Shown here piece by piece: positions 445-13,607 of a stretch of DNA of 13,675 bases. How positions within the stretch are numbered: position 1 is the first letter of the stretch; the number at the start of each line of letters is the position of its first letter. The stretch covers positions 1-13,675 of the forward strand of contig JASEGJ010000027.1 of NCBI GenBank assembly GCA_030018135.1. The letters are read 5' to 3'. The DNA is from Candidatus Hodarchaeaceae archaeon (lineage in GTDB: Archaea > Hadarchaeota > Hadarchaeia > Hadarchaeales > Hadarchaeaceae). The position numbers were made by a program, and so were the translations under genes. The notes under the pieces are model-generated. The model made no database searches. It worked only from the letters and a program-made list of their open reading frames with translations, and was not told where the DNA came from.

Positions 445-867
445 ATGGTAAAAAAAGTTTACCTGTCGGTGCCTTTGATCGCTAACCGGGACGTGCGAAC
501 TGCCAAGCGAATCGCTAGAATTATCGAAGCAGCTGGTCACAAAATAATTTCCCCTTGGGTCCTCGAGAGGAACCCAAATGGAAATCTGACGGCGGCGGAG
601 GTTTTCGAGCGCGACACGAATGGCGTTAGAGAGTGCGATGTCATCGTTGCGGAGGCGTCCACGCCCAGCCACGGCATCGGCATTGAAATGATGCTGGCGC
701 ACACCTTGGGGAAGAGGATAATCTGCATTTACAGGTCCGGCACCAAGCTTTCGCGGATGATTCAGGGCATGCCGAATGCGGTTCTGATCGAATATACGGG
801 CGTCTCGGATCTAAGGAAAAAGCTGTCGACCGAGCTTAAGGTACTTAAAGACCGACTCCAATCTTGA
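445..867 (+). CDS. Nucleoside 2-deoxyribosyltransferase-fold protein, DNPH1/RCL-like
   Basis: This 140-residue protein looks like the DNPH1/RCL group of the nucleoside 2-deoxyribosyltransferase superfamily. Known members hydrolyse the N-glycosidic bond of 2'-deoxynucleoside 5'-monophosphates, a nucleotide-sanitising or salvage reaction. Visible signs: an N-terminal beta strand with VYLSVPL, a CDVIVAEAS strand with Asp65, then TPSHGIGIE with Ser75 and Glu81, where family members carry the phosphate-binding Ser and the catalytic Glu. A strand GKRIICIYR and an SRMIQG segment resemble the RCL C-terminus. Length fits the family (about 140-175). GGGGAG at 435-440 is a good ribosome-binding site for ATG 445. 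The thiolase-like gene starts 21 bases downstream, so co-transcription is likely. Exact substrate is not determinable; a phosphoribosyl or other N-glycosidase role is possible. Confidence 0.75.
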   Translation: MVKKVYLSVPLIANRDVRTAKRIARIIEAAGHKIISPWVLERNPNGNLTAAEVFERDTNGVRECDVIVAEASTPSHGIGIEMMLAHTLGKRIICIYRSGTKLSRMIQGMPNAVLIEYTGVSDLRKKLSTELKVLKDRLQS

Positions 868-888: not shown

Positions 889-2052
889 TTGAGGGATGTG
901 GCGATCATAGGATGCGGGATGACGAAATTTGGAAGGATCGAGGGCAAGAATTTAATGGATCTAATGGTGGAAGCCTCCCTAAGGGCAATCGATGACGCCG
1001 GGGTAGGAGAGGAGGACTTCGATTCAGTTTACGTGGGAAATATGATGGCGGGAGAACTCACCCACCAGACCGCGATAGCAAGCGCCCTCGTAGATCGAAT
1101 TAATTTGATCCCGGCGGCCGCGGAACGGGTGGAGAACGGTCCAGCGTCTGGGGCGTCCGCAGTCAAAAATGGCTTTCTGGCGGTGGCTTCCGGGGCAAGC
1201 GACTTGGTGCTCGTCGCTGGCGGGGAGAAGATGACGGAGGCCGATACGGATGTCATCACCGACTTGGTATCCACGATGACCCATCCAACCGCAGAATACG
1301 TGCACGGCGTGACCTTGCCCGCCATGGCCGCGTTGCTCACCCGCCTCTACATGGAACGTTACGGTCTCACCGAGCGCCACTTGGCGATGGTCGCGGTCAA
1401 GAACCATTCCAACGCCATGAAAAATCCATATGCTCACATCCAGAGGCCATGCACGGTCGAAGGCGCCATGAGCTCAGTCATGATCGCAGACCCGCTTCGG
1501 CTTTACTACGCTTGCCCGATCAGCGACGGCGCTGCCGCGGTGGTTCTATGTCCCTTGGAGAAAGCGAAGGAGTTCGCGGATAAACCCGTTCGAATCGCCG
1601 GCTTCGGGCACGCAAGCGATGTGCAGACCCTTCACGAGCGGGAAGACCCAGCAGTACTCAAATCGGTCCAGCTCGCCTCGCAGCGGGCGTTCGAGATGGC
1701 CAAGCTAAAGCCCAAGGACATAGATGTCGTGGAAACCCACGATGCCTTCGAGATACTGGAAATCGTGCAAAGTGAGGATGCCGGATTTTTTGAGAAGGGA
1801 AAGGGGCACCTGGCAGTTGAAAAGGGCGTGACCGCGCTTGATGGGGAACTGCCGATCAACCCATCTGGAGGGCTGAAGGCGAGGGGCCACCCCGTGGGAG
1901 CGACCGGCGTGGCGCAGATAGTCGAGCTCGTTTGGCAGTTGCGAGGTGAGGCCGGCGAACGGCAGGTCAAAGGCGCGAAACGGGCCTTCGCCTGCAACTT
2001 CGGGGGCTTCGGCAACAACACCGTCATACATATCTTGGAGAGGGTGGGTTAA
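889..2052 (+). CDS. Thiolase-fold protein (SCP-x/archaeal thiolase type) with Pro in place of the nucleophilic Cys
   Basis: This 387-residue protein has the full thiolase fold. The N-terminal domain opens with VAIIGCGMTKFG, and the block that normally reads ACASG reads NGPASGAS, putting Pro85 where thiolases have the acyl-accepting cysteine. Other features are kept: HDAF at 284-287 (the His motif of SCP-x thiolases), GHPVGATG with His334, and CNFGGFG with Cys369. Archaeal thiolases typically make or cleave acetoacetyl-CoA and pair with a DUF35 protein, which starts one base after this stop codon. Without the cysteine, ordinary ping-pong thiolysis is unlikely. Thiolase-fold aldolases such as bacterial Ltp2, which also lack the cysteine and need a DUF35 partner, are a possible model (inference). 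Family certain; reaction unknown. Many databases would call it acetyl-CoA acetyltransferase. Confidence 0.88.
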   Translation: MRDVAIIGCGMTKFGRIEGKNLMDLMVEASLRAIDDAGVGEEDFDSVYVGNMMAGELTHQTAIASALVDRINLIPAAAERVENGPASGASAVKNGFLAVASGASDLVLVAGGEKMTEADTDVITDLVSTMTHPTAEYVHGVTLPAMAALLTRLYMERYGLTERHLAMVAVKNHSNAMKNPYAHIQRPCTVEGAMSSVMIADPLRLYYACPISDGAAAVVLCPLEKAKEFADKPVRIAGFGHASDVQTLHEREDPAVLKSVQLASQRAFEMAKLKPKDIDVVETHDAFEILEIVQSEDAGFFEKGKGHLAVEKGVTALDGELPINPSGGLKARGHPVGATGVAQIVELVWQLRGEAGERQVKGAKRAFACNFGGFGNNTVIHILERVG

Positions 2053-2053
2053 G

Positions 2054-2401
2054 ATGCAGGAGAGGCTCACTGGCTTCAAATGTAAGCGCTGCGGTCGGGT
2101 GACGTACCCGAAGCACGAGCGCTGTCTGAGTTGCAGGGGCACCGAGTTCGAGGAGGTCGGGTTGGGCGACGAGTGCACCCTGCTGACCTACACCAAGCTT
2201 TATGCCCTGCCCGAGGGGATTGAGATGCCGCCCCTGACGCTCGGGGTGGTCGACTTCGGCGGCGGCGTGCGAGCACTGGGGCAAATAATATCAGACGACC
2301 CAAAGATTGGGATGAAGCTCCGCCCAGTCTGGGGGAAGCTCCGCAAGATCGGTGAAGAAGAGATGTACGGGTTCAAGTTTGAACCAGCCGAAAAAGGTTA
2401 A
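2054..2401 (+). CDS. DUF35 Zn-ribbon/OB-fold acyl-CoA-binding partner protein
   Basis: This 115-residue protein has the two-part DUF35 layout: a rubredoxin-like zinc ribbon (Cys10, Cys13, Cys24, Cys27, two CxxC pairs) and an OB-fold from about residue 35 onward, with LTYTKLYA and LTLGVVDF strands. DUF35 proteins bind thiolase-family enzymes and help channel or bind CoA esters; in archaea they form complexes with acetoacetyl-CoA thiolase and HMG-CoA synthase. ATG 2054 was chosen because GGTGGGTT (2043-2050) precedes it and the preceding gene ends at 2052, giving tight coupling. A longer in-frame start at 1946 would lie deep inside the thiolase-like gene and is rejected. No HMG-CoA synthase gene is adjacent, so a mevalonate role is not shown. 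Confidence 0.88.
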   Translation: MQERLTGFKCKRCGRVTYPKHERCLSCRGTEFEEVGLGDECTLLTYTKLYALPEGIEMPPLTLGVVDFGGGVRALGQIISDDPKIGMKLRPVWGKLRKIGEEEMYGFKFEPAEKG

Positions 2402-2438
2402 ATGCCTTTAGCTGGATGAAAAAAAGGGAGGGATCGTG

Positions 2439-3032
2439 ATGGAGGTTGACTGGAAAAGTGTAATGAAACCTTACCCAAAGCGAAGGATCGTCCTGCCGAA
2501 CGGCGAGGAGATGATCGTTTACTCGCAGACGAAAGATGAAATCGAACAAGTCGCCGAAGCTATAATGTCGAACATAAAATACCACAAGGACCTCTTCGAC
2601 CTCGTGACCTCGGAGATCATCACCGAGCTTTACCTCTGGCGGGAGAACCGACCGATGTGGGGTTGCCCGCCTGAGAGCCACTTTAACCTCGTCGGGAAGG
2701 TGGGGGGCGAAATAGTCGGTTGCTCGAACGGCGCGCTGCGGGATCCGAAGACCGGGTGCAGCCTCCACACAATAACAATGAAGCGCGGGCTGCAGATAGG
2801 TGCTTACCTCTGGCCGTGCAAACTTGAGCACTACTTTGATGTGCTTGGGATTGAAAGGCTTGAGGCGAGCGCGGAAAGTGCGATCGGAGGGCGAAAGCTC
2901 TTCGCAACGTACGGTTTTACACCGCAGCCCTTCCCCGAGAAAAAGAGTCACTTCGGGACTCAATTGCAAGTGATGACGCGCGAGCAGTGGGAACGGATAA
3001 AGCCAGGCAAGCTCGTAGGCGAGCGGATCTAG
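2439..3032 (+). CDS. GNAT-like N-acetyltransferase
   Basis: This 197-residue protein ends in a segment typical of the GNAT fold. RGLQIGA at about 116-122 resembles the acetyl-CoA-binding RGxGIG loop, though the usual second Gly is Gln. A helix (LEHYFDVLGIERLEA) follows, then the LFATYGFTP ending common to GNAT proteins at about 154-162. The N-terminal half (residues 1-90) is not recognised. Family knowledge suggests acetyl transfer from acetyl-CoA to an amine, but the substrate cannot be told. The start could be GTG 2436 or ATG 2439; GGGAGG at 2426-2431 lies 7 bases before the ATG and 4 before the GTG, so the ATG is preferred. It sits 37 bases after the DUF35 gene, probably in the same transcript, and may act on a product of the thiolase-like pair or be unrelated. 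Confidence 0.65.
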   Translation: MEVDWKSVMKPYPKRRIVLPNGEEMIVYSQTKDEIEQVAEAIMSNIKYHKDLFDLVTSEIITELYLWRENRPMWGCPPESHFNLVGKVGGEIVGCSNGALRDPKTGCSLHTITMKRGLQIGAYLWPCKLEHYFDVLGIERLEASAESAIGGRKLFATYGFTPQPFPEKKSHFGTQLQVMTREQWERIKPGKLVGERI

Positions 3033-3118: not shown

Positions 3119-3598
3119 TTGTACAAGCGGATCGCCCTCATAGAAAATCCGCCCATCAATACATGCGTCGGCTGTCGCACCTGCGAATCCGCGTGCTCCT
3201 TTTGGCACGAGAGGGCATTCAATCCGGAAAAATCGCGCATCCGCGTCACCCGCACGGAGTACGGCATAAGCTACCCAATCACCTGCCGTCAATGTTTTAA
3301 GGCCCCATGCGTGGACGCTTGCCCGACCCGCGCGATCCACAGGAATGCTGAAACGGGCGTGGTGTTGGTGAGCGAGGGGCTTTGCATAGGTTGCGGCCTC
3401 TGCGTCGAAAGATGTCCGTTTGGCGCCATTGTCTTACATCCGGACAAAAAAGTCGCGATTAAATGCGACCTCTGCGGCGGCACCCCCGCATGCGTTAAGT
3501 TCTGCCCCGAGCGGGTTCTCCGCCACATCGATGTCAATGTTGCGGCACAAGGTCGCCGTCGTAGCTGGGTGGAATCCAAGGTCGGCGGGGGTGCGTAG
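3119..3598 (+). CDS. Polyferredoxin subunit with four 4Fe-4S clusters, partner of the aldehyde oxidoreductase
   Basis: This 159-residue iron-sulfur protein has 16 cysteines in four groups: C16/19/22/26, C56/59/64/68, C89/92/95/99 and C116/119/125/129, the HycB/DmsB-like arrangement for four 4Fe-4S clusters. Such subunits carry electrons between a catalytic molybdenum or tungsten enzyme and ferredoxin or another carrier. The next gene, starting 2 bases after this stop, is that catalytic enzyme. The order matches AorA-AorB of bacterial tungsten aldehyde oxidoreductases and BamC-BamB of benzoyl-CoA reductase; no FAD-bearing third subunit follows. TTG 3119 was chosen because GGGGT (3108-3112) lies 6 bases before it and the protein then starts just ahead of the first cysteine cluster. 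The longer in-frame start at 2987 would overlap the GNAT gene and adds unrelated basic sequence. Confidence 0.88.
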   Translation: MYKRIALIENPPINTCVGCRTCESACSFWHERAFNPEKSRIRVTRTEYGISYPITCRQCFKAPCVDACPTRAIHRNAETGVVLVSEGLCIGCGLCVERCPFGAIVLHPDKKVAIKCDLCGGTPACVKFCPERVLRHIDVNVAAQGRRRSWVESKVGGGA

Positions 3599-3600
3599 GG

Positions 3601-5532
3601 ATGGCGCTCAGGTACTCCGGCTACGTCGGCAAATATCTGCGCGTGGATCTCACCAGCGGCAAAATCTCGGAAGTCCACCTAGAGGAGCAGCTCACCCGCC
3701 TTTACCTCGGCGGAAACGGTTTCGGGACTAAAATTCTTTGGGATGAGGTCCCGGTCGGCGTCGACCCGTTTGATCCGGAAAATAGGCTTATCTTCAGCAC
3801 CGGTCCTTTGACCGGCACCGTGTGGCCCACCGCGGGTCGGCTGGAGGTCATAGGCAAGAGTCCCCTCACCGGCATTTATGGCGATGCTAACGCAGGCGGG
3901 CATTTCGCCCCCGAACTCAAATTTGCGGGCTATGACATGATCGTCTTTCAGGGCAAAAGCAAAAAGCCCGTATACCTTTGGGTCGAAGACGGTCGTGCCG
4001 AGTTGCGCGACGCCTCTCACCTCTGGGGCAAGGGCACTTGGGAGGCCGAAAGGACAATCCGCAAGGATCATGGGGACGGGGGGATCAAGGTAGCTGGCAT
4101 CGGCCAGGCCGGCGAAAATAGGGTGCGTTTCGCAGGCATCATCACGAGCGGCAGGGCAGCCGCTAGGACTGGATTAGGCGCGGTGATGGGCAGCAAAAAT
4201 CTCAAGTGCGTGGCGGCTCGAGGCACATTCGATGTCGGGGTCGCCAAAGATGAGTTTTATGATTACGCTTACGAGATTCATCAGCAAATTTTAGCAAACG
4301 AGTACACGCCATCGACATCCAGATACGGCACGCTGGGCTTGGTTAATCCCATGAACGAAATCAGCCGCTTTCCGACCAAGAACTTCCAGCGCGGTGACTT
4401 CCCGTACGCGAATGAAATTTCTGGAGAGATCCTCGAGAAAAAATTCCTCGTCAGGCGCGTCGGCTGCTACGCTTGTCCAATAAGCTGTGGTCGAACCGTG
4501 GCAGTTAGAGATGGACCATATAAGGGCACCTACACAGAGGGGGTTGAGTACGAAACCATCAACGCGTTGGGTGCCAGAACCTGGAATAGGGACATGGCGT
4601 CTATCCTCAAAGGCGACCTCCTTTGCGATGAATATGGCATCGATTCAATTTCCACTGGCGGCGTTATCGCTTTCGCGATGGAATGCTTCGAGAACGGCAT
4701 CATCTCCGAAGGGGACACCGACGGACTCAAACTCGAATGGGGAAATCCCGAGATAGTGCTGGAACTTATCGAAAAGATAGCGAAGAGGGAAGGAATAGGA
4801 AACGTGTTGGCAGAGGGAGTAGTAAGGGCGGCCAAGAAATTCGGCAAAGGCGCTGAATATTATGCCATGCACATCAAGGGGATGGAGATGTCCGCCCAGG
4901 ATCCGCGCAGCCAGCAATCCTACATCTTGGCCCACATCACAGGCACGCGGGGCGCGGACCATTTAAAGGGCTTTCCGTGCATAGACGAAACTGGCTACGT
5001 GGACGCGGCGGTCAGGAGATATGGGGAGCAATATTTGCCAGAGATAGTGGACGGGCTTTCGACCAAGTACAAGCCCATGGTTGTAAAGGATGGTGAGGAG
5101 TTGGGGGCCGTGGCGGACAGCGCGATAGTCTGCAAGTTCGGAACGCATTTCCCGCCCGCCTATTATTGGCCGGAGCTCGCGAGGGGGATAAGCTTGGCCA
5201 CCGGCATGCAGCTGGGCATCGCCGAGCTGAAGGAAATTGGGGAGAGGATTTACAACTTGCAGAGGTGCTTCAACGTCCGGGAGGGGATCGGCCGCAGGGA
5301 CGACACTCAGCCTAGGCGGATACTGGTCGAGAGCGGCACCGGTAGGGCAAAAGGTCATGCCGCCGGTCCCCTGCAGGAGCTGATGCTGGATGAGTACTAT
5401 GAGCTGAGGCGGTGGGACAAAAAAACTGGCTGGCCGACTCGGGCCAAGCTCGAGGAATTAGGACTTAAGAATGTCGCTGAGGATATGGAGAAGATGGGAC
5501 GGCTTCCCGCCCGTGGCAAAAGGAGGCGATAG
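3601..5532 (+). CDS. Aldehyde ferredoxin oxidoreductase family protein (tungsten/molybdopterin)
   Basis: This 643-residue protein matches the AOR family in length (600-660) and motifs. The N-terminal domain includes GGNGFGTKILW and the pterin-binding GRAAARTGLGAVMGSKNLK. A 4Fe-4S cluster is set by CxxCxxxC (Cys289, Cys292, Cys296) and a distant Cys511 in the DSAIVCKF block. A second pterin-contact region carries DPRSQQ and GTRGADHLKG. Family members oxidise aldehydes to carboxylic acids (or the reverse) at a bis-pterin tungsten centre, normally in the cytoplasm. With a separate polyferredoxin gene upstream it resembles the AorB/BamB branch rather than the single-subunit Pyrococcus enzymes. 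Substrate is unknown; upstream CoA-ester genes suggest an aldehyde derived from or going to an acyl-CoA pathway (inference). No frameshift or missing ligand was noticed. Confidence 0.92.
   Translation: MALRYSGYVGKYLRVDLTSGKISEVHLEEQLTRLYLGGNGFGTKILWDEVPVGVDPFDPENRLIFSTGPLTGTVWPTAGRLEVIGKSPLTGIYGDANAGGHFAPELKFAGYDMIVFQGKSKKPVYLWVEDGRAELRDASHLWGKGTWEAERTIRKDHGDGGIKVAGIGQAGENRVRFAGIITSGRAAARTGLGAVMGSKNLKCVAARGTFDVGVAKDEFYDYAYEIHQQILANEYTPSTSRYGTLGLVNPMNEISRFPTKNFQRGDFPYANEISGEILEKKFLVRRVGCYACPISCGRTVAVRDGPYKGTYTEGVEYETINALGARTWNRDMASILKGDLLCDEYGIDSISTGGVIAFAMECFENGIISEGDTDGLKLEWGNPEIVLELIEKIAKREGIGNVLAEGVVRAAKKFGKGAEYYAMHIKGMEMSAQDPRSQQSYILAHITGTRGADHLKGFPCIDETGYVDAAVRRYGEQYLPEIVDGLSTKYKPMVVKDGEELGAVADSAIVCKFGTHFPPAYYWPELARGISLATGMQLGIAELKEIGERIYNLQRCFNVREGIGRRDDTQPRRILVESGTGRAKGHAAGPLQELMLDEYYELRRWDKKTGWPTRAKLEELGLKNVAEDMEKMGRLPARGKRRR
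5521..5526 (+). promoter_or_regulatory. Ribosome-binding site inside the end of the AOR gene
   Basis: AGGAGG lies 6 bases before GTG 5533, overlapping the last codons of the oxidoreductase gene. Its strength and spacing are the main evidence that the small frame behind it is translated, and that translation is coupled to AOR. Confidence 0.65.
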
Positions 5533-5700
5533 GTGCGTGCTTCTATGCCCGAAGTGAAATGTCCGGACGATGGCACCCGCTTAGGGAACTTCGAAGCACA
5601 CGACGCTGGGTATTACGAAAAGACGAAGAGGTTTTACTCGAAGCTTTGCCCAAAGTGCAGCAAGGTTTGGTTCTTTGGGTGTTCACGGATGGGAGGGTAA
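5533..5700 (+). CDS. Small cysteine-containing, possible Zn-ribbon protein
   Basis: A 55-residue frame starts at GTG 5533, directly after the AOR stop codon, behind a consensus ribosome-binding site at 5521-5526. Its cysteines are Cys10 (KCPDDG), Cys39 and Cys42 (LCPKC) and Cys50 (FFGC), a spacing that suggests a small zinc ribbon or metal site. No family is recognised. An internal ATG at 5545 would give 51 residues but lies 18 bases from the ribosome-binding site. Tight coupling suggests a role with the oxidoreductase, for example a metal-binding accessory or maturation factor, but nothing in the sequence shows this. It could also be a short regulatory Zn-finger protein. Confidence 0.55.
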   Translation: MRASMPEVKCPDDGTRLGNFEAHDAGYYEKTKRFYSKLCPKCSKVWFFGCSRMGG

Positions 5701-5831: not shown

Positions 5832-6770
5832 ATGCGATACGTAAAAGCCACTTCCATCGGCTCAGCAGCACGCGACGCGTTGAAGAGGTGTACCCTAGGT
5901 TCTGTGCACAGCGTGTTTGAGCGCACCTTCAATGTTTTGATTGGAGGCGAACTCATAGGCATTGGAAGGAGCGATGTAGCAAGGAGCCCAACAAACGTGA
6001 TTACGGATATTCCATCAAGCGCGAAGATGTCGTCGCTGGGCATTCGAAAAAACGATGAGGTTTTAACAGCGGGGAACTCGCTCGAGATCGGGGGTTGGCT
6101 TAGGATATCGCTGGATGGCGCCGAGATATGGCGCCCGCGGCGGCGAGTTGCCAAACCGCTTGAGGTCGAACTCATCAAAAATAATTTGTCGACGGCAGAA
6201 GAGTTTGCGAACAGCGGGCACTATAGGGATGGTTTGGGGCAACTGCTATTTTACATTGATGATGTCGTTTTTGGTACTGCTGCAGAAGACCCACAGCTAA
6301 ACCCAGTTGTACGGTCGGCTTTGCCGCACATCCTATCCCTATTAAGAGCGGTTGAGTCTAAAGATTTGGACCTAGTGAGGCAGAGCGCGGAAAAGCTCGC
6401 GGGACTTGGACCGGGGCTATCCCCCTCATCCGACGACATGCTAGCGGGCTTTATGTCCAGCCTAAGATGGACGATCAGCTCACTCGGCGGGAATCCTGCT
6501 TACATCGATGAGGTAAATCAAGCCATCTTGGTTTCGACCACTGGGAGGACGACACTTTTGAGCCAACAATTGTTGGGGCATGCCACAGCCGGCGAGGTAA
6601 ATGAGACAGTTGAGGGCCTGCTCGAAACTATTTTGGCTGGCAAGCCGAGCGAGGTGAGGGCCGCGACTGAAGAAGTTTTGGCGATGGGTGAAACCTCTGG
6701 AGTAGATACGATGGTCGGAATTTTGCTGGGTTCACGTTTGGGGCTGAAAATTTTCACAAACAAAAGTTAA
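5832..6770 (+). CDS. DUF2877 (AllH-like) protein
   Basis: This 312-residue protein belongs to DUF2877. The diagnostic blocks are GLGPGLSPSSDDMLAGF at 191-207 and GETSGVDTMVGILLG at 286-300. In bacteria AllH of this family works with AllF and AllG as a carbamoyltransferase on oxamate in allantoin breakdown, but many archaea carry stand-alone DUF2877 genes of unknown role. No AllF, AllG, carbamate kinase or ureide gene is visible here, so an oxamate role should not be assumed. ATG 5832 follows only a weak ribosome-binding site (GGAGCTGG near 5820-5827), consistent with a short leader from the TATA box at about 5795. The gene converges on the DUF5698 gene with 5 bases between stop codons. Predicted soluble; no signal peptide seen. 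Confidence 0.8.
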   Translation: MRYVKATSIGSAARDALKRCTLGSVHSVFERTFNVLIGGELIGIGRSDVARSPTNVITDIPSSAKMSSLGIRKNDEVLTAGNSLEIGGWLRISLDGAEIWRPRRRVAKPLEVELIKNNLSTAEEFANSGHYRDGLGQLLFYIDDVVFGTAAEDPQLNPVVRSALPHILSLLRAVESKDLDLVRQSAEKLAGLGPGLSPSSDDMLAGFMSSLRWTISSLGGNPAYIDEVNQAILVSTTGRTTLLSQQLLGHATAGEVNETVEGLLETILAGKPSEVRAATEEVLAMGETSGVDTMVGILLGSRLGLKIFTNKS

Positions 6771-7521: not shown

Positions 7522-9459
7522 CTATGTTAAAGGCTCAAGCTTGGGCTCGCTCTGAAATACGAATCCTGGTTCGTTTTCCCCGTAATGCCAAGGCATCATC
7601 GCATAGTGCAACACGATCGGCCGTCCCTCGTGCTCGAACTCGAACCTCCAGGTGGGGTATGTGGCCACATTTGTCATCGCCGCTGCAGCATGGCAGGCTG
7701 CATCGAAGGGCACGACAACGATCCCCGAGGGCACTAGGTAGGCTAGCTCGAGATATGGGCCGTCGCGATAGCTATCCTTTGAGTAAAGCCATATGGAGCC
7801 GCCTGAGTGCGTCAGCCCCACGCCTGCAACCCCATCGCCCGCAAGCTCTGATCGGATGAACCGCGTGATATCCCAGCTAACCCACTCGCCGCGGATTATC
7901 TGCAGCTCTTGCAGGGCGGAACCGAGCGCAGGGCGGTTGTTCCAAGTTATCGATTTTTCGCTCCAGCCATCGTAGGTCACGCTGTGCGCCGTAATCCTCG
8001 GAGTCCCAGATCTATTGTAAACATATGCGCGGAGACAAGCACCCTCCAAACTGCCGGAAACAGTCGATAGATCGAATTTGAGGTAGGATTGCACGGCAGT
8101 GGGGTTGCCGTAGGGATCCCTCTTCCCTCCCACATATAATGTGTCTTTGGTTCCAAAATTTGAATTAGGGTTGAGTTCCTCGACGTACGCATCGTCGGTC
8201 GGAGAGATCCTTGCATCGGACACGATCAACATCTGCCAGGTGCGCTGTCTAAGCTGCGCGAGGGTCTGCAAGGGCGAACGAATCCATCCGACTGAGAAGG
8301 CATCCGCAACGGATGGATTGTACTCGAACTCAAAGTTTTCCGCACCGCTCAAAATTTCTCGCACCAGCCACGCTTTTTCAACCCCGCCCACGCGCCCGTT
8401 GTCCCATCCTCCGACCACGCGCAAGGTCGCCAGCCCCTCCTCTTCGGTCAACGTCTTATGATCGATGACAACATCGTGCAGCACTGGTGTCAGGTAGATG
8501 TTATCCGCGCGCAGGGTGGCGCGATACCTGATGAACCTCGCCGGAGGCGATGGTACCTCCAGCCCGTTCGTACACGCCTGCCAGCTGGACCAAGCGATGT
8601 TATCGTTGGAGGTGGATACCTCGAGGATTATCGAAGTGCCCATCGGTTCGCTGGATGTCCACGAGATCTTACCCCACTCAACCACCTCGCCGGCATCGTA
8701 AGCTGGAGATGTCAGGACGCCCGTGCTCATGTACTGCGGCGCGCAGGTTATCTCAAGGTATGGATGTCTGTCGCTATGTTGCCATTCCTTGGAGTCGAAC
8801 AACGCACGACCCAAATAGCCCACCTCGGGCGCGCCCCTTAAACAAAAGCTCACCACCCTATCGCCGTTAAACTCCCGCCCCACGAAATCGGTGATGCCCC
8901 AAGTATACCAGCCCGCGCCAGTTATCGCGACGGCATCGAGCCTGCTGCCATGGCTTGGCTTGTTGTTCCAGGTGATGGTGCGTTCGGACCAGCCGTCGTC
9001 GGCGACCTCGTGGCACGCCGCCATAAATTCTTCGAGTTCGAGCTTCCAGCAGTGGAGGTAAAGCTTGGCCTCGAGGATGGCGGATGAAACCTCCCCGAGG
9101 TCGAACTTCAAAAAGCCCCAATTTTTATACCCCTGCTTATCCAAGCGGGTGACCCAAATGCTGGTACGGTCGCCATAATTGGTGCTTGAATATTGATATT
9201 TTTCGTAAACGCTGGCGTCATCGGTCGGACGAACATAAATCCTCGCGCCCTGAAAGGTGGCTTGAAGCTTGACGTCGCCTGGGCTGCTCGTCACATCGAG
9301 GTTCTCGAGGTCGCCGATCTCGAAGTCCGTGCGCAAGGTCTGCGTCCAGCTACCCTCCCTGGGCCGAGAGTACTCCGCCCCGCGGTAGACCAAGCGAACC
9401 AAGACATCATCGCCCTCGCGCCGATATCCGATCGCATCGAGCACCTTACCGTCTCGCAA
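7522..9459 (-). CDS. Large surface protein with two DNRLRE-type beta-sandwich domains (5' end probably broken)
   Basis: The frame encodes 645 residues from TTG 9459. Two homologous domains are visible, at about 74-238 and 416-575. Each has a FLKFDL or YLKFDL strand, a GWSE[RK][TS]ITWNN[KR]P block and a final HPYLEI or GPYLEL strand, the signature of the DNRLRE/disaggregatase-related (CBM96-like) domain of secreted archaeal and bacterial proteins. A different beta-rich domain (about 245-335) lies between them. Such domains bind polysaccharide or build surface layers; no catalytic motif is recognised. The ORF lacks a signal peptide or membrane anchor, unusual for this class. TTG 9459 has no ribosome-binding site: the bases before it are CCCCCC. 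The frame stays open upstream into the end of the preceding membrane-anchored gene, so the true start is probably there, across a frameshift. Confidence 0.75.
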   Translation of the reverse strand: MRDGKVLDAIGYRREGDDVLVRLVYRGAEYSRPREGSWTQTLRTDFEIGDLENLDVTSSPGDVKLQATFQGARIYVRPTDDASVYEKYQYSSTNYGDRTSIWVTRLDKQGYKNWGFLKFDLGEVSSAILEAKLYLHCWKLELEEFMAACHEVADDGWSERTITWNNKPSHGSRLDAVAITGAGWYTWGITDFVGREFNGDRVVSFCLRGAPEVGYLGRALFDSKEWQHSDRHPYLEITCAPQYMSTGVLTSPAYDAGEVVEWGKISWTSSEPMGTSIILEVSTSNDNIAWSSWQACTNGLEVPSPPARFIRYRATLRADNIYLTPVLHDVVIDHKTLTEEEGLATLRVVGGWDNGRVGGVEKAWLVREILSGAENFEFEYNPSVADAFSVGWIRSPLQTLAQLRQRTWQMLIVSDARISPTDDAYVEELNPNSNFGTKDTLYVGGKRDPYGNPTAVQSYLKFDLSTVSGSLEGACLRAYVYNRSGTPRITAHSVTYDGWSEKSITWNNRPALGSALQELQIIRGEWVSWDITRFIRSELAGDGVAGVGLTHSGGSIWLYSKDSYRDGPYLELAYLVPSGIVVVPFDAACHAAAAMTNVATYPTWRFEFEHEGRPIVLHYAMMPWHYGENEPGFVFQSEPKLEPLT

Positions 9460-9526
9460 GGGGGGATGGTGATCGAGCGCGTAGAAATAGGCCGCGGCTA
9501 TCGCGACCGCCTCGAAGCTATTCCCC
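9460..9526 (-). other. Start-less coding continuation and suspected +1 frameshift site (AAAGGGGAATAG)
   Basis: The downstream frame is open from an in-frame TAA near 9610 to 9459 but has no ATG, GTG or TTG before 9459. Its last 21 codons (9522-9460) use the same G/C-rich third positions as the neighbours and encode a plausible hydrophobic stretch, including EAVAIAAAYFYALD. The upstream frame stops at TAG 9520-9518 right after GGGG (9526-9523). Dropping one G would join the two frames into a single protein of 823 residues. Confidence 0.6.
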
Positions 9527-9994
9527 TTTGCCCAGCCATAAAAATTCGGGAGCCGTATCTTCTTTTGGCAGTTCGATCTCCGGCAGCGCGGTTTCGATGG
9601 GCTCGGCGGAGATTATCACCCTATCGCTCCTACCCTGGACAAAGAGCTTTTCACCAGGGCCCGGAAGCGAGCGAACCTCTAGTTCCACGTTCACGCCAGA
9701 GTAATAGCTTTGTCCCTTTCGCATGCCCCGGATTATCGTTAGCACGATCGTGCGGTTGTCCACGCGTAGCTCGTAGTCGCTCCCGCCCACATCGGTGGGT
9801 AACACGTAGGTCGGCTGTTGCCGCACTAGGGCTGCGAAGCAGGCCCGAGCGATGTCGTCGACGAGCAGCTGTGCTTGCTCATCAACGCCCGCCTCTCGCT
9901 GTTTGCTCACCTGCATCACAAAAACGCCGCATAGGAGTACTGCCATCACAACGCTGAATAACAGATAAAATGGCAGATTTTCAGCGTCCGCCAC
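9518..9994 (-). CDS. Membrane-anchored secreted protein, possibly the N-terminal part of the DNRLRE protein
   Basis: This 158-residue frame has one strong N-terminal membrane segment (about residues 8-28, FYLLFSVVMAVLLCGVFVMQ), a helical stretch with DEQAQLLVDDIARAC, then a beta-rich domain with YELRVDNRTIVLTII. It resembles archaeal pilin-like or single-anchor surface proteins and is related to the gene upstream: ADAE near the start versus GDAV, and LRVDNRTIVL versus LRFENRALVV. GTG 9994 was chosen because GAGGGGG (10010-10004) lies 9 bases before it; it overlaps the upstream gene by 14 bases, so translation is coupled. The frame ends in a TAG directly behind a GGGG run, where the downstream protein's frame takes over, so it may be the anchor half of one long protein. 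No function is recognised. Confidence 0.65.
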   Translation of the reverse strand: MADAENLPFYLLFSVVMAVLLCGVFVMQVSKQREAGVDEQAQLLVDDIARACFAALVRQQPTYVLPTDVGGSDYELRVDNRTIVLTIIRGMRKGQSYYSGVNVELEVRSLPGPGEKLFVQGRSDRVIISAEPIETALPEIELPKEDTAPEFLWLGKGE

Positions 9995-10364
9995 TTACGA
10001 TAACCCCCTCGCCAGTTCGCTCAAGGGTTAATTTTGCCTGTCGTCCGCTGATCGAAGGACCGGTCACTTGCACGCCAACATCGTGAGTCCCTACATTTTT
10101 GTCGATAATCACAACAAGCGCGCGATTCTCAAAACGTAGCTCGCAGTTTGAAGGCACCGTGATGGTGAAAAACGTCCGAGTGCCCGAATCTTGATCCGCA
10201 AGTGTTTTTATCCTTTTCGCGAGTTCCTCAGCTTCTCGTCTGGACACCAGCTTTGCGTTTTCCTCGCGATAAGTACCGTACATACCAACAAACATGGTAC
10301 AAAAGATGGCCGCGAAAATAATGCCCGCCAACAACCTGAAGGCGACCACCGCATCCCCCTTCAA
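9981..10364 (-). CDS. Small membrane-anchored pilin-like protein
   Basis: This 127-residue protein has an N-terminal hydrophobic segment (about 8-30, FRLLAGIIFAAIFCTMFVGMYG), a charged helix with REAEELAKRIKTLADQ, and a beta-rich tail containing LRFENRALVVIID. The layout and two short blocks match the next gene downstream, suggesting duplication. TTG 10364 is preferred because it gives MKGDAV, which lines up with MADAEN of the paralogue, and KG|DA loosely fits an archaeal prepilin cleavage site. GTG 10349, with GGGGG 5 bases before it, is a real alternative. It starts 34 bases after ilvC with no TATA box in between, so it is probably read from the ilv transcript or a promoter inside ilvC. Function unknown; a pseudopilin or surface-layer component is a guess. 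Confidence 0.65.
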   Translation of the reverse strand: MKGDAVVAFRLLAGIIFAAIFCTMFVGMYGTYREENAKLVSRREAEELAKRIKTLADQDSGTRTFFTITVPSNCELRFENRALVVIIDKNVGTHDVGVQVTGPSISGRQAKLTLERTGEGVIVSGGR

Positions 10365-10398: not shown

Positions 10399-11388
10399 TC
10401 ACTTTTCGATGCCAGCCCACTTCCGCAACTCTTGCCCAACCCGTTCAATGAGGTGCTCCCTTGCAGCCTCGCGCATCCGCTTTAGATTTTGAATCTCGTG
10501 CTGGCTCTCCTCGGCCCACTCCTTTGCAAATGCGCCGCTTTGAACGTCGGCCAATATTTTTTTCATCACCTCTCTCGCTCGCTCGTCGATCACCCATTTG
10601 CCGCGCGTCCTTCCGCCATATTCCGCGGTGTTGCTGACCGCCGCCATCATGCCCTCGATTCCACGCTCGTAGATCAAATCGACGATCAGCTTGAGTTCAT
10701 TTAAGCATTCGAAGTATGCGATCTCGGGCTGATAGCCGGCGTCCACGAGCGTCTCGAAGCCAGCCTTGATCAACTCGGAGACACCACCGACGAGCACAAC
10801 CTGCTCGCCGAAAAGGTCTGTCTCCACCTCCTCCCTAAAGGTCGTCTCGACCACGCCTATCCGTGTAAGCCCGATGCCCTTAGCCAATGCCAATGCAACC
10901 TGCTTTGCCAGTCCAGTATAGTCCTGCGCAACGGCTAGCAGACCGGGCACCCCTGAGCCCTGCTGGTACATGCGCCGCAGTATCGCCCCAGGTGCCTTGG
11001 GTGCAATCATTATCACGTCGACATCGCGGGGTGGCACGATCTGCTTGAAGTGGATGTTGAAGCCATGGCTGAAGCAAAGCGTCTTGCCCCTCGTCATCGC
11101 GTGCGAGATCTGCTCTCGATAAACTTGGGCTTGGTACTCGTCCGGTATCAGCACGTGGACGATATCGCCGCGCTTGGCTGCTTCTGCTATCTCAAAGACA
11201 TCAAAGCCATCAGCCAATGCTTGACCCCAGTAGCGATCGCCGCGCACGTTGCCAACGATAACCTCACAACCGGAGTCTCGAAGGTTGTTCGCCTGTGCGT
11301 GCCCTTGGTTGCCATAGCCAATTATCGCTGTGGTTTTACCCCTTAGCGCGCCTAAATCCGCATCCTTTTCATAGTATATTTTCGCCAT
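10399..11388 (-). CDS. ilvC: Ketol-acid reductoisomerase, class I
   Basis: This 329-residue enzyme performs the second common step of valine, leucine and isoleucine synthesis: Mg-dependent alkyl migration and reduction of acetolactate or acetohydroxybutyrate. The Rossmann motif GYGNQGHAQ (about 24-32) is followed by the catalytic-domain metal ligands ETDLFGEQ and [17 protein letters not shown], each with the D/E-x3-E pattern. Length fits the short class I form. The cofactor-specificity loop reads GNVRGDRYW (46-54): Asp51 and Tyr53 stand where NADPH-dependent enzymes usually have two serines, which suggests NADH or mixed use (inference). ATG 11388 has a strong site, GGGGGAGG, overlapping the ilvN stop codon, so translation is coupled. 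It is third in ilvB-ilvN-ilvC. Confidence 0.96.
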
Positions 11389-11390
11389 AT

Positions 11391-11400
11391 CCTCCCCCTA
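11391..11400 (-). promoter_or_regulatory. Ribosome-binding site of ilvC overlapping the ilvN stop
   Basis: On the minus strand TAGGGGGAGG merges the ilvN stop codon with a near-consensus ribosome-binding site, 2 bases before ATG 11388. This couples ilvC translation to ilvN. Confidence 0.7.
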
Positions 11401-11880
11401 GCTCATTTCCCTTGAGATTATCACCTGCCCCGAACGGACAACTTCTCGCAGGATGTCTTGGCCTAAGGCTTCGATTACTTTTTCAATATCCTCGTGGGTA
11501 CCGCTGACCTCGGCCACCAAAGTATTGTTTTTGGATTCCAAAATCCGCCCCCCTGCCTTCTCAACTTGGTGCATAACATTCCACATATCATCATCGCCTA
11601 GGCACTTTGTCTTGAGCAACGCGATTTCGCGAACGATGCTGGTCGCCTGGTCAATCACTTGGATATCGATGACCTGGGTGAGGCGAGCTATAAGCTTGCG
11701 CATGAATTCGGCAATATGATCGTCCGCCTGGAATAGGAGAATTATGCGTGCCAAACCGCTTGGCTCAATGCCAACGGTGATCGAATCGATGTTGATTTGC
11801 CTGCGCGTGAAAACCCGCGAAATCCTCATCATGACGCCAGGCGCATTTTCACACAATACCGAGAAAATTCGGACCTTCAC
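11398..11880 (-). CDS. ilvN: Acetolactate synthase small (regulatory) subunit
   Basis: This 160-residue protein has the normal two-domain layout. An N-terminal ACT domain (about 1-75) contains ENAPGVMMRISRVFTRR and INIDSITVG, and the C-terminal small-subunit domain (about 80-155) contains KAGGRILE. In known systems the ACT dimer binds valine, leucine or isoleucine and adjusts activity of the large subunit encoded just upstream. GTG 11880 is the start; GGGGTGG (about 11892-11886) lies 5 bases before it and overlaps the ilvB stop codon. The gap from ilvB is 10 bases and to ilvC 9 bases, a compact operon. Nothing unusual seen. Confidence 0.95.
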   Translation of the reverse strand: MKVRIFSVLCENAPGVMMRISRVFTRRQINIDSITVGIEPSGLARIILLFQADDHIAEFMRKLIARLTQVIDIQVIDQATSIVREIALLKTKCLGDDDMWNVMHQVEKAGGRILESKNNTLVAEVSGTHEDIEKVIEALGQDILREVVRSGQVIISREMS

Positions 11881-11890
11881 CTTGCCACCC

Positions 11891-13570
11891 CTAGGTCAGC
11901 ATTTGATCGAGCCGCCCGCCCGCTGGTACCATCGGCAGGACATGCTCATCTGGATCTATGATTATATCTAGCACCGCTGGCTTGCCGCACCTCAGCGCCT
12001 CCCGCAGCTTTGGTGCTATTTCGCTCGGCCTCGTAACGCGGTCGCCCCAAGCACCATAGGCCTCAGCGAGTTTCACGAAGTCTGGCGTCTCGCCCAAATA
12101 GACTGCCGAGCGACGCTTTTGGAAAAATATGTCCTGCCACTGCTTGACCATGCCGAGGTAGCGGTTGTCGAGGATACAGACCACAACGTTGATATTATTA
12201 TCGACGGCCGTAGCCAGCTCCTGAGAGTTCATTAGAAAACTTCCGTCACCAGCGACATCCACGACGTCGCAGTCCGGGCGGGCAACCTTTGCGCCGATGG
12301 ACGCCGGAAAGCCAAAGCCCATGGTGCCCAATCCGCCTGAGGATATAAAGTGCCTCGGCTTGCGCACGGTGAAATAGTGCGCCGCCCACATCTGGCACTG
12401 GCCGACCTCGGTCACCACTATTGCATTTTCGTCGAGCACTCCCATGATTTCCTTGATGACGCGCTGAGGCTTGATCGGCACATCGTCGTGGTTCATGCGG
12501 GGCGCGAGTTCCCCGCGCATTTTCTCGACGCGCTGAAGCCACTCGCTTGGCCTTTGTAGCCTTGCCTGTACGCGCAGACCGTCGATGATCGCCTTGAGCG
12601 CGTGTTTCGCATCGCCAACAACTGGCGCATCCACACGCACATTCTTGCTTATTTCGGATGGATCGATGTCGATATGTATAATTTTAGCTTTCGGCGCAAA
12701 ATATCGCACATCACCGGTTGCGCGGTCATCAAAGCGCACCCCGACGCCCAATAGCACATCGCACTCCGTGACCGCGATATTGGCCGCCATCCGACCGTGC
12801 ATGCCGAGCATACCTAATGCCAACGGATGGTCCTCGGGTATGGCCCCTTTGCCGAGCAGAGAAGTCGCAACGGGGGCGCCGAGCATTTCGGCCAGCGTTA
12901 GGACTTCGGACGATGCACCAGACCAAATGACACCCCCGCCCGCAAATATTAAAGGTCGCTTCGCCTGGACCAACAGGTTGACAGCCCTGCGAACTTGCTC
13001 GATGCTGGGCTCGAGCTTTGGGGACTTGGTATACTCGACTTCGGCAGGTATCTCCACATCCACCTCCTTCGCTTGCGCATCCTTCGGCATGTCGATATGT
13101 ACGGGGCCCGGTCTGCCCGTGGTCGCTATTTTGAACGCCAACCTGACCACGCGCGGTACATCTTCGGCCCTATGGACGATGAAGTTGTGCTTCGATATCG
13201 GCAGCATTATGCTCAGCATGTCGGCCTCCTGAAATGCATCGGTGCCCAACATCGAGCTGGGCACCTGCCCGCTGATGGCGATGACTGGCGAGCTATCCAT
13301 GTACGCGTTAAGGATGCCCGTCGTCAGATTTGTCGCGCCTGGGCCGGAGGTGGTCATGCACACGCCCGGCTTGCCGAGCACCCTAGCATAGCCATCCGCA
13401 GCGTGGGCGGCCCCCTGCTCATGTCTTACGAGTATGTGGCGGATATCTCGTTCATCGTAGAGAACGTCGTAAGTGGGGATGATCGCCCCGCCCGGCAGGC
13501 CAAAGATATGCTTGACCCCCTCCGCCTTCAGGGCCTCCAAGAGGGCCTTTGCGCCAGTCAACATAGTCAT
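11891..13570 (-). CDS. ilvB: Acetolactate synthase large (catalytic) subunit
   Basis: This protein of about 559 residues is a thiamine diphosphate and FAD enzyme that condenses two pyruvates, or pyruvate with 2-oxobutyrate, as the first step of branched-chain amino-acid synthesis. Visible blocks: LLEALKAEGVKHIFGLPGG at the N-terminus; RHEQGAAHAADGYAR with the Glu that activates thiamine; GPGATNLTTG; GGLGTMGFGFPASIGAK; and the thiamine/Mg site GDGSFLMNSQE followed by ILDN. Length and order fit the family with no gaps. Three in-frame starts are possible: GTG 13576, ATG 13570 and ATG 13564. None has a clear ribosome-binding site; ATG 13570 is a compromise. The TATA-like box at 13617-13608 would give a leader of about 17 bases. 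It heads the operon and is probably cytoplasmic. Confidence 0.96.
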   Translation of the reverse strand: MTMLTGAKALLEALKAEGVKHIFGLPGGAIIPTYDVLYDERDIRHILVRHEQGAAHAADGYARVLGKPGVCMTTSGPGATNLTTGILNAYMDSSPVIAISGQVPSSMLGTDAFQEADMLSIMLPISKHNFIVHRAEDVPRVVRLAFKIATTGRPGPVHIDMPKDAQAKEVDVEIPAEVEYTKSPKLEPSIEQVRRAVNLLVQAKRPLIFAGGGVIWSGASSEVLTLAEMLGAPVATSLLGKGAIPEDHPLALGMLGMHGRMAANIAVTECDVLLGVGVRFDDRATGDVRYFAPKAKIIHIDIDPSEISKNVRVDAPVVGDAKHALKAIIDGLRVQARLQRPSEWLQRVEKMRGELAPRMNHDDVPIKPQRVIKEIMGVLDENAIVVTEVGQCQMWAAHYFTVRKPRHFISSGGLGTMGFGFPASIGAKVARPDCDVVDVAGDGSFLMNSQELATAVDNNINVVVCILDNRYLGMVKQWQDIFFQKRRSAVYLGETPDFVKLAEAYGAWGDRVTRPSEIAPKLREALRCGKPAVLDIIIDPDEHVLPMVPAGGRLDQMLT

Positions 13571-13607
13571 TTGCACGACCGTCCAGCTATCCGTCTATTT
13601 TTTCGCG

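Follow-up and report, generated by a model that had tools for sequence, protein, structure and literature searches.

The analysed window is a stretch of 13,675 nucleotides from a Hadarchaeota MAG whose nearest relatives are Hadesarchaea (88–92% identical). It contains a trio of adjacent genes, encoding a thiolase-fold protein, a DUF35 protein and a GNAT-fold protein, with the following features in and around it:

445–867, plus strand: nucleoside 2-deoxyribosyltransferase-like protein, upstream of the thiolase gene in locus L061 too
889–2052, plus strand: cysteine-less thiolase-fold protein of 387 aa, with a TTG start, of the PRK06064 subfamily and the ENGPASG clade
1141–1143, plus strand: Pro85 (codon CCA), at the position of the thiolase nucleophilic cysteine by alignment
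1738–1749, plus strand: HDAF motif (residues 284–287), with His284 (CAC at 1738) kept and Ala286 at the usual HDCF cysteine of most canonical relatives
1888–1890, plus strand: His334 (CAC) of GHPVGATG
1993–1995, plus strand: Cys369 (TGC) of CNFGGFG
2054–2401, plus strand: DUF35 partner (zf-ChsH2 and OB_ChsH2_C) with an intact C-x2-C-x10-C-x2-C (C4) zinc ribbon
2436–3032, plus strand: third partner, a GNAT-fold protein
3119–3598, plus strand: 4Fe-4S ferredoxin-type protein adjoining the next gene
3601–5532, plus strand: aldehyde ferredoxin oxidoreductase (AOR) family protein, weakly linked to the trio
5832–6770, plus strand: AllH (PF11392), a subunit of the oxamate carbamoyltransferase-type FdrA-AllG-AllH

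The rest of the window has other contents. At about 1–40 on the minus strand, the contig end carries a possible truncated tRNA 3′ end (gggttcgaatcccggt), a region in which ARAGORN called no tRNA. A small ORF between the AOR and AllH genes (5545–5700) encodes two CxxC-like pairs (VKCPDDGTRLG... LCPKCSKVWFFGC) and has a homologue at the equivalent place in L061 (43%). The minus strand at 7522–10364 encodes a CBM96-repeat surface-type protein, then two short ORFs with hydrophobic N-termini that may be pilin- or archaellin-like, and this region adjoins ilvC-ilvN-ilvB-like genes at 10399–13576. Scans for Rfam families and promoters yielded no useful result.

The 889–2052 product scores over the cut-off of the PRK06064 subfamily model and has Thiolase_N and Thiolase_C domains. 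The original prediction placed a proline at the position of the acyl-accepting cysteine, with HDAF, His334 and Cys369 kept, and the codons agree with it on every point. In pairwise alignments the nucleophilic cysteines of 6ESQ (RVEAACASG) and 7YVY (KIEAACASG) lie opposite Pro85 (RVENGPASG), and these alignments with solved thiolases place no substitute cysteine near it. The same genome encodes two more thiolases of the family: a canonical Cys/HDCF protein beside a DUF35 gene on contig C40, and a Cys/HDAF protein on contig C33.

Relatives were grouped by the residue at the nucleophile position, giving a clade set of 39 distinct sequences from Hadarchaeota, Thermoproteota (Nitrososphaeria and others) and Bipolaricaulota, and a canonical set of 46. 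Pro85, His284, Asp285, Ala286, Phe287 and His334 are invariant in all 39 clade members, whose motif is ENGPA[S/A]G, and every one of the 46 canonical relatives has Cys as its nucleophile; Pro85 is therefore neither a chance substitution nor a sequencing error. The acid/base cysteine of HDCF is missing as well (HDAF in 39 of 39), a feature that is not strict, since some Cys-bearing relatives likewise carry HDAF, HDSF or HDNF. Cys369 is Val or Leu in eight members, both Nitrososphaeria-type and others, and is not essential to the clade because just 30 of the 39 keep it; Ser87 is replaced by Ala in six. His132 of the TH[PH] motif occurs in 38 of the 39 and in most other archaeal cysteine-less relatives, with Asp in most canonical ones; it was considered as a new catalytic residue and is suggestive, yet it is missing in L089 and L123. 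With the cysteine-less state fixed and the DUF35 gene consistently linked, the original view of this protein as something other than a thiolase is well supported. Judging from sequence, it is very improbable that the protein carries out thiolysis in the usual way, because the cysteine-less state is fixed.

The AlphaFold model of the protein (pLDDT 94.9) best matches an archaeal acetoacetyl-CoA thiolase (Z 64.3, 1.2 Å over 385 residues), followed by SCP2 thiolases and 4YZO (Z about 58), with Ltp2 and Sal at about 50. Archaeal acetoacetyl-CoA thiolases are also nearest in overall sequence (42–47% identity). The archaeal thiolase/HMGCS/DUF35 complex (6ESQ, 6ET9) shares with the window protein its fold (Z 64, 42% identity), a DUF35 partner, and HDxF and GHP-type motifs, but the window protein has Pro for the nucleophilic Cys and HDAF for HDCF, and the GNAT partner is absent from the complex. 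The thiolase-like ST0096 of Sulfolobus tokodaii (4YZO; 43% identity, Z 57.9) is likewise cysteine-less (NTSGSGG) and shares the HDxxxxLEI motif; in contrast, it has Ser/Thr at the nucleophile position and HDMA instead of HDAF. In the literature searched, no paper addressed either the function of ST0096 or the thiolases of Hadesarchaea.

In the phylogenetic tree, the ENGPA clade is supported (98/91) within a larger archaeal cysteine-less set (96/61). Also in this set, as sister to the ENGPA clade and outside it, are ST0096-type proteins (HDMA or HDMF; 4YZO itself lies outside the tree sample); most of their genomes that were tested for the GNAT partner do not have it. A further member of the wider set is a ‘3-ketoacyl-CoA thiolase’ of Halorubrum lacusprofundi plasmid pHLAC01 (L167:7989–9514), which is cysteine-less (DQTSSSG, HDMF), is followed by a DUF35 gene and adjoins a TRAP transporter. 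Copies from Bipolaricaulota (L013–L018, including one labelled Neomarinimicrobiota) nest within those of Hadarchaeota, and this topology suggests lateral transfer of the trio from archaea to bacteria. The Neomarinimicrobiota-labelled record, L013, groups with Bipolaricaulota and may be mis-binned.

The predicted coupling of the thiolase gene to DUF35 is borne out: the DUF35 gene begins 1 bp past the thiolase stop codon. Three features go beyond the original prediction, namely loss of the second (HDCF) cysteine, the third conserved gene at 2436–3032 and AllH at 5832–6770. Neither Pfam nor NCBIfam gives a match for the product of the third gene; its model, with a pLDDT of 89.9, has a GNAT fold most similar to PA3270 (Z 14.8), and E64, R72, N98, S109, H111, T112 and E147 are invariant in the family. 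Among 121 archaeal genomes this GNAT is confined to 12, all of Hadarchaeota, and the cysteine-less thiolase is seen in 10 of these. It is present in 10 of the 11 Hadarchaeota having that thiolase and in all 12 genomes of other phyla that contributed a clade thiolase. In G001 the thiolase may have escaped assembly, as the GNAT gene borders a contig end; G003, also of Hadarchaeota, is GNAT-positive without a clade thiolase. In Hadarchaeota the three genes run thiolase, DUF35, GNAT, and in Bipolaricaulota GNAT comes first, ahead of thiolase and DUF35; all six of six Nitrososphaeria genomes encode the GNAT, at a place unlinked to the thiolase. An apparent GNAT–thiolase fusion in L018 (a 656-aa ORF) was rejected, its upstream part being an out-of-frame shadow ORF; the genes are neighbours that are read in separate frames. 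The GNAT family, for which Pfam and NCBIfam hold no model, is tied to FdrA-AllG-AllH clusters across several phyla (the window, L017, L096, L146 and others).

The AllH gene lies beside the trio not only in the window but at the majority of Hadarchaeota loci. The host genome encodes FdrA and AllG as well, on contig C2 (L153), together with an acetate-CoA ligase (ACS) homologue and a PF04199 cyclase. AllG was found in 9 of 11 thiolase-positive versus 3 of 17 thiolase-negative Hadarchaeota genomes. Among 300 Thermoproteota genomes, 19 have AllG and 12 have GNAT, and all 12 GNAT-positive genomes are AllG-positive (hypergeometric 6e-17, not corrected for phylogeny), the two genes mostly lying 1–13 kb apart. 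AllG was not found in three of the six Bipolaricaulota-type genomes with the trio, nor in G005 and G014; the link is thus not absolute, or these MAGs are incomplete.

Genes recurring in these clusters encode a three-subunit xanthine-dehydrogenase-like hydroxylase, the PF04199 cyclase, FdrA, AllG, AllH, a CoA transferase or ACS, and a Bmp-type nucleoside-type ABC transporter. FdrA, AllG and AllH are homologues of the AllFGH oxamate carbamoyltransferase of Escherichia coli (PMC11326118); unlike there, they are linked here with CoA enzymes, the hydroxylase and the cyclase, not with allantoin genes. Uridine phosphorylase (TIGR01718, 305 bits, over the cut-off) is found in some clusters only, and some others have a deaminase closest to 5′-deoxyadenosine deaminase, so purines are also possible substrates; cytosine-deaminase-like proteins score below the cut-off. 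In the window (3119–5532) and in L061 (4489–6886), ferredoxin and AOR genes separate GNAT from AllH, and neither locus shows xanthine-dehydrogenase-like genes nearby. In these two loci AOR might take the place of the hydroxylase.

Most GNAT-positive genomes without the clade thiolase carry an MmdA-type carboxyltransferase subunit instead. An mmdA homologue, identified by matches scoring below the curated cut-off of the model, is present in 9 of 10 GNAT-positive genomes without the clade thiolase versus 1 of 24 with it (Fisher 2e-6, with no phylogenetic correction); the genomes with MmdA may belong to just a few lineages. GNAT, AllG and MmdA-type genes occur without the clade thiolase in eight Thermoproteota genomes (G149, G196, G236, G263, G284, G290, G355, G382), and in most of these the MmdA gene lies in the same cluster. 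So it does in the hadarchaeote G003, where mmdA adjoins GNAT; the within-family contrast between thiolase and MmdA comes from this single genome, and G129 carries both. In G196, G236 and G290 (L180, L181, L183), MmdA is accompanied by OAD_beta, a biotin carrier, biotin ligase (BirA) and BioY, and by this gene content the system is predicted to be a biotin decarboxylase of the Na+-pumping kind. In G284, OAD_beta also adjoins MmdA. A further FdrA-AllG-AllH/XDH cluster with a biotin Na+-decarboxylase was seen at L161, from the Thermoproteota phylum. Known Na+-translocating biotin (methyl)malonyl-CoA decarboxylases have the same subunits (MmdA, OAD_beta, biotin carrier); such a system shares its kind of cluster with the thiolase but is a biotin-dependent membrane system non-homologous to it, and displacement of the thiolase by MmdA need not imply the same reaction. 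The clusters of G236 and G290 contain PrpB- and PrpD-like genes, which would fit a propionyl-CoA product from thymine.

The best current explanation, with a probability of roughly 0.4, is that the thiolase-fold protein is, by analogy with KSQ domains, a decarboxylase of malonyl-CoA-type esters in the oxidative breakdown of pyrimidines or other nucleobases. Ketosynthase domains of polyketide synthases in which Cys is changed to Gln or Ser (KSQ/KSS) keep malonyl decarboxylation and lose condensation (PMC12843615), and in KSQ-type decarboxylation two His residues hold the carboxylate (PMC12267109). TbSLP, a thiolase-like cysteine-less protein, slowly decarboxylates malonyl-CoA (PMC12329534). The alignment reveals the same combination in the thiolase clade, with the cysteine lost and both active-site histidines kept. 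The likeness is at the motif level, an analogy and not membership, as KSQ/KSS domains, malonyl decarboxylases within the thiolase superfamily, have acyl-ACP substrates, Gln or Ser where the window protein has Pro, and no DUF35.

The protein would be a CoA-thioester C–C lyase of thiolase fold that has permanently lost its acyl-accepting cysteine, with DUF35 as a stable subunit and the GNAT-fold protein as an associate. It would bind a malonyl-CoA-type thioester (β-carboxyl or β-amidyl), and the His284/His334 pair and the thioester oxyanion hole would expel the β-carbon as CO2, leaving acetyl-CoA. Thiolases cut the Cα–Cβ bond and pass Cβ to a cysteine; were Cβ a carboxylate, no acceptor would be required, so that loss of the cysteine would be expected. 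In the logic of KSQ decarboxylases, the cysteine would be dispensable because the leaving group needs no capture. Against this reading, Pro85 might instead alter the shape of the oxyanion hole in some other way.

For the pathway as a whole we infer the following substrates, reactions and order of steps. Imported nucleosides would undergo phosphorolysis, then hydroxylation by the xanthine-dehydrogenase-like enzyme and ring opening by the PF04199 cyclase. Oxidation of uracil to barbiturate and then ureidomalonate would give a malonyl unit. FdrA-AllG-AllH would then transfer the carbamoyl group to phosphate, releasing malonamate and carbamoyl phosphate by analogy with the AllFGH reaction, in which oxalurate yields oxamate and carbamoyl phosphate (PMC11326118). 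After CoA activation, the thiolase–DUF35 unit would produce CO2 and acetyl-CoA. The genes seen do not account for the conversion of malonamate to a free β-carboxylate. GNAT accompanies both the thiolase and MmdA and therefore probably performs a separate step, perhaps acyl transfer to CoA.

An unlikely alternative is a non-decarboxylating lyase for a β-amidyl thioester, in which malonamyl-CoA or ureidomalonyl-CoA (CoA-S-CO-CH2-CO-NHR, a 3-oxoacyl-CoA analogue) would yield acetyl-CoA and carbamate, or would serve as acyl donor, with the GNAT subunit or some small nucleophile as acceptor. An amide would indeed be the product if the FdrA-AllG-AllH homologues treat their substrate as oxalurate is treated (PMC11326118). 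Acyl-CoA is bound by known relatives of both the GNAT and thiolase subunits, and a CoA transferase or ACS gene adjoins AllG in several clusters. Substitution by MmdA and OAD_beta, however, points to loss of a free carboxylate, and we know of no precedent for C–C cleavage of an amide.

It is more doubtful still that the protein is a non-catalytic or regulatory CoA-binding scaffold that holds an intermediate and the GNAT subunit in position, a role that PhlA may have in PhlABC. That DUF35-containing complex of the thiolase superfamily provides a precedent for a subunit without an active-site role, since acyl transfer there involves residues of PhlC alone (PMC6392133), and both catalytic cysteine positions are lost in our clade. 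The invariance of His284, Asp285, His334 and the surrounding motifs over several phyla nevertheless suggests retained catalysis, and the thiolase seems to bring an activity of its own, because GNAT occurs without it where MmdA is present.

The original prediction of a CoA-ester aldolase, which like Ltp2 or Sal would release an aldehyde or ketone for oxidation by the nearby AOR, is not borne out and is now very unlikely. Ltp2-ChsH2 (6OK1) and Sal-Shy (9MYR) do resemble the window pair in their thiolase fold, DUF35 subunit and lack of a nucleophilic cysteine, and His284 could in principle stand in for Tyr as a base. In Ltp2 and Sal a catalytic Tyr takes the place of the first His, and the second catalytic residue is Tyr344 in Ltp2 and the Cys of YDCY in Sal; mutagenesis has demonstrated the catalytic role of the Tyr and Cys residues (PMC12329534). 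The alignment with Ltp2 and Sal (Z 50, 25–27% identity) shows both residues to be missing: the window protein has HDAF where the Ltp2 reference (from an igr-like operon of a Vibrio plasmid, 535 bits to 6OK1) has YDHF and Sal has YDCY, so that the Tyr is absent, and Ala286 is at the Sal Cys position. Conversely, the GHP histidine lost in both aldolases is present, with GHPVGATG where Ltp2 has EAYIHGMNG. In the tree Ltp2 is far from the archaeal clade, although its long branch makes its exact place unsure. No producers of β-hydroxyacyl-CoA (acyl-CoA dehydrogenase, MaoC hydratase) were identified among the neighbours scanned. The AOR gene does start at 3601, about 1.2 kb downstream on the same strand as predicted; as a pathway partner it was dropped, since among the loci examined AOR was seen beside the trio in the window and L061 only, each time together with ferredoxin and ahead of AllH.

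The least probable reading is that the protein remains a thiolase or Claisen enzyme with a different nucleophile (Ser87 or Cys369) or with an acyl group supplied by the GNAT subunit: it agrees with the closeness of archaeal acetoacetyl-CoA thiolases in sequence and structure and with the placement of Cys369 at what we take, by motif, to be the acid/base cysteine of classical thiolases, but neither Ser87 nor Cys369 is conserved, which led us to drop moonlighting via Cys369, and the genome has its separate canonical thiolase on C40. That GNAT is itself the decarboxylase, by analogy with MLYCD and CurA (PMC3701320), is only an idea, set against its presence with both thiolase and MmdA, which makes a separate step probable, and against the lack of any Pfam match to an MCD family up to E 10 (the invariant S109, H111 and T112 are candidates for the His-Ser/Thr dyad of MCD); MCD and CurA chains are absent among the 50 structural matches listed for its model, which excludes neither.

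The decarboxylase reading can be extended to a complete route of oxidative pyrimidine breakdown, archaeal in origin and acquired laterally by bacteria, in which an AllFGH-type enzyme would save the ureide as carbamoyl phosphate and a cofactor-free, DUF35-dependent malonyl-CoA decarboxylase of thiolase fold would replace the Na+-pumping biotin decarboxylase of sister clusters. In this full form we regard it as tentative and somewhat unlikely.

Databases call these proteins ‘acetyl-CoA acetyltransferase’ or ‘thiolase domain-containing protein’, names that are very likely mistaken for every member of the clade as well as for the ST0096-type sister group. Should the protein prove to be a decarboxylase, the family would represent a thiolase-fold malonyl-CoA decarboxylase of primary metabolism that acts on CoA rather than ACP esters. 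An unnamed GNAT family would then gain a function, and FdrA-AllG-AllH a setting in archaea. The chemistry of cysteine-less thiolases, aldolase versus decarboxylase, is directly testable in this one gene set.
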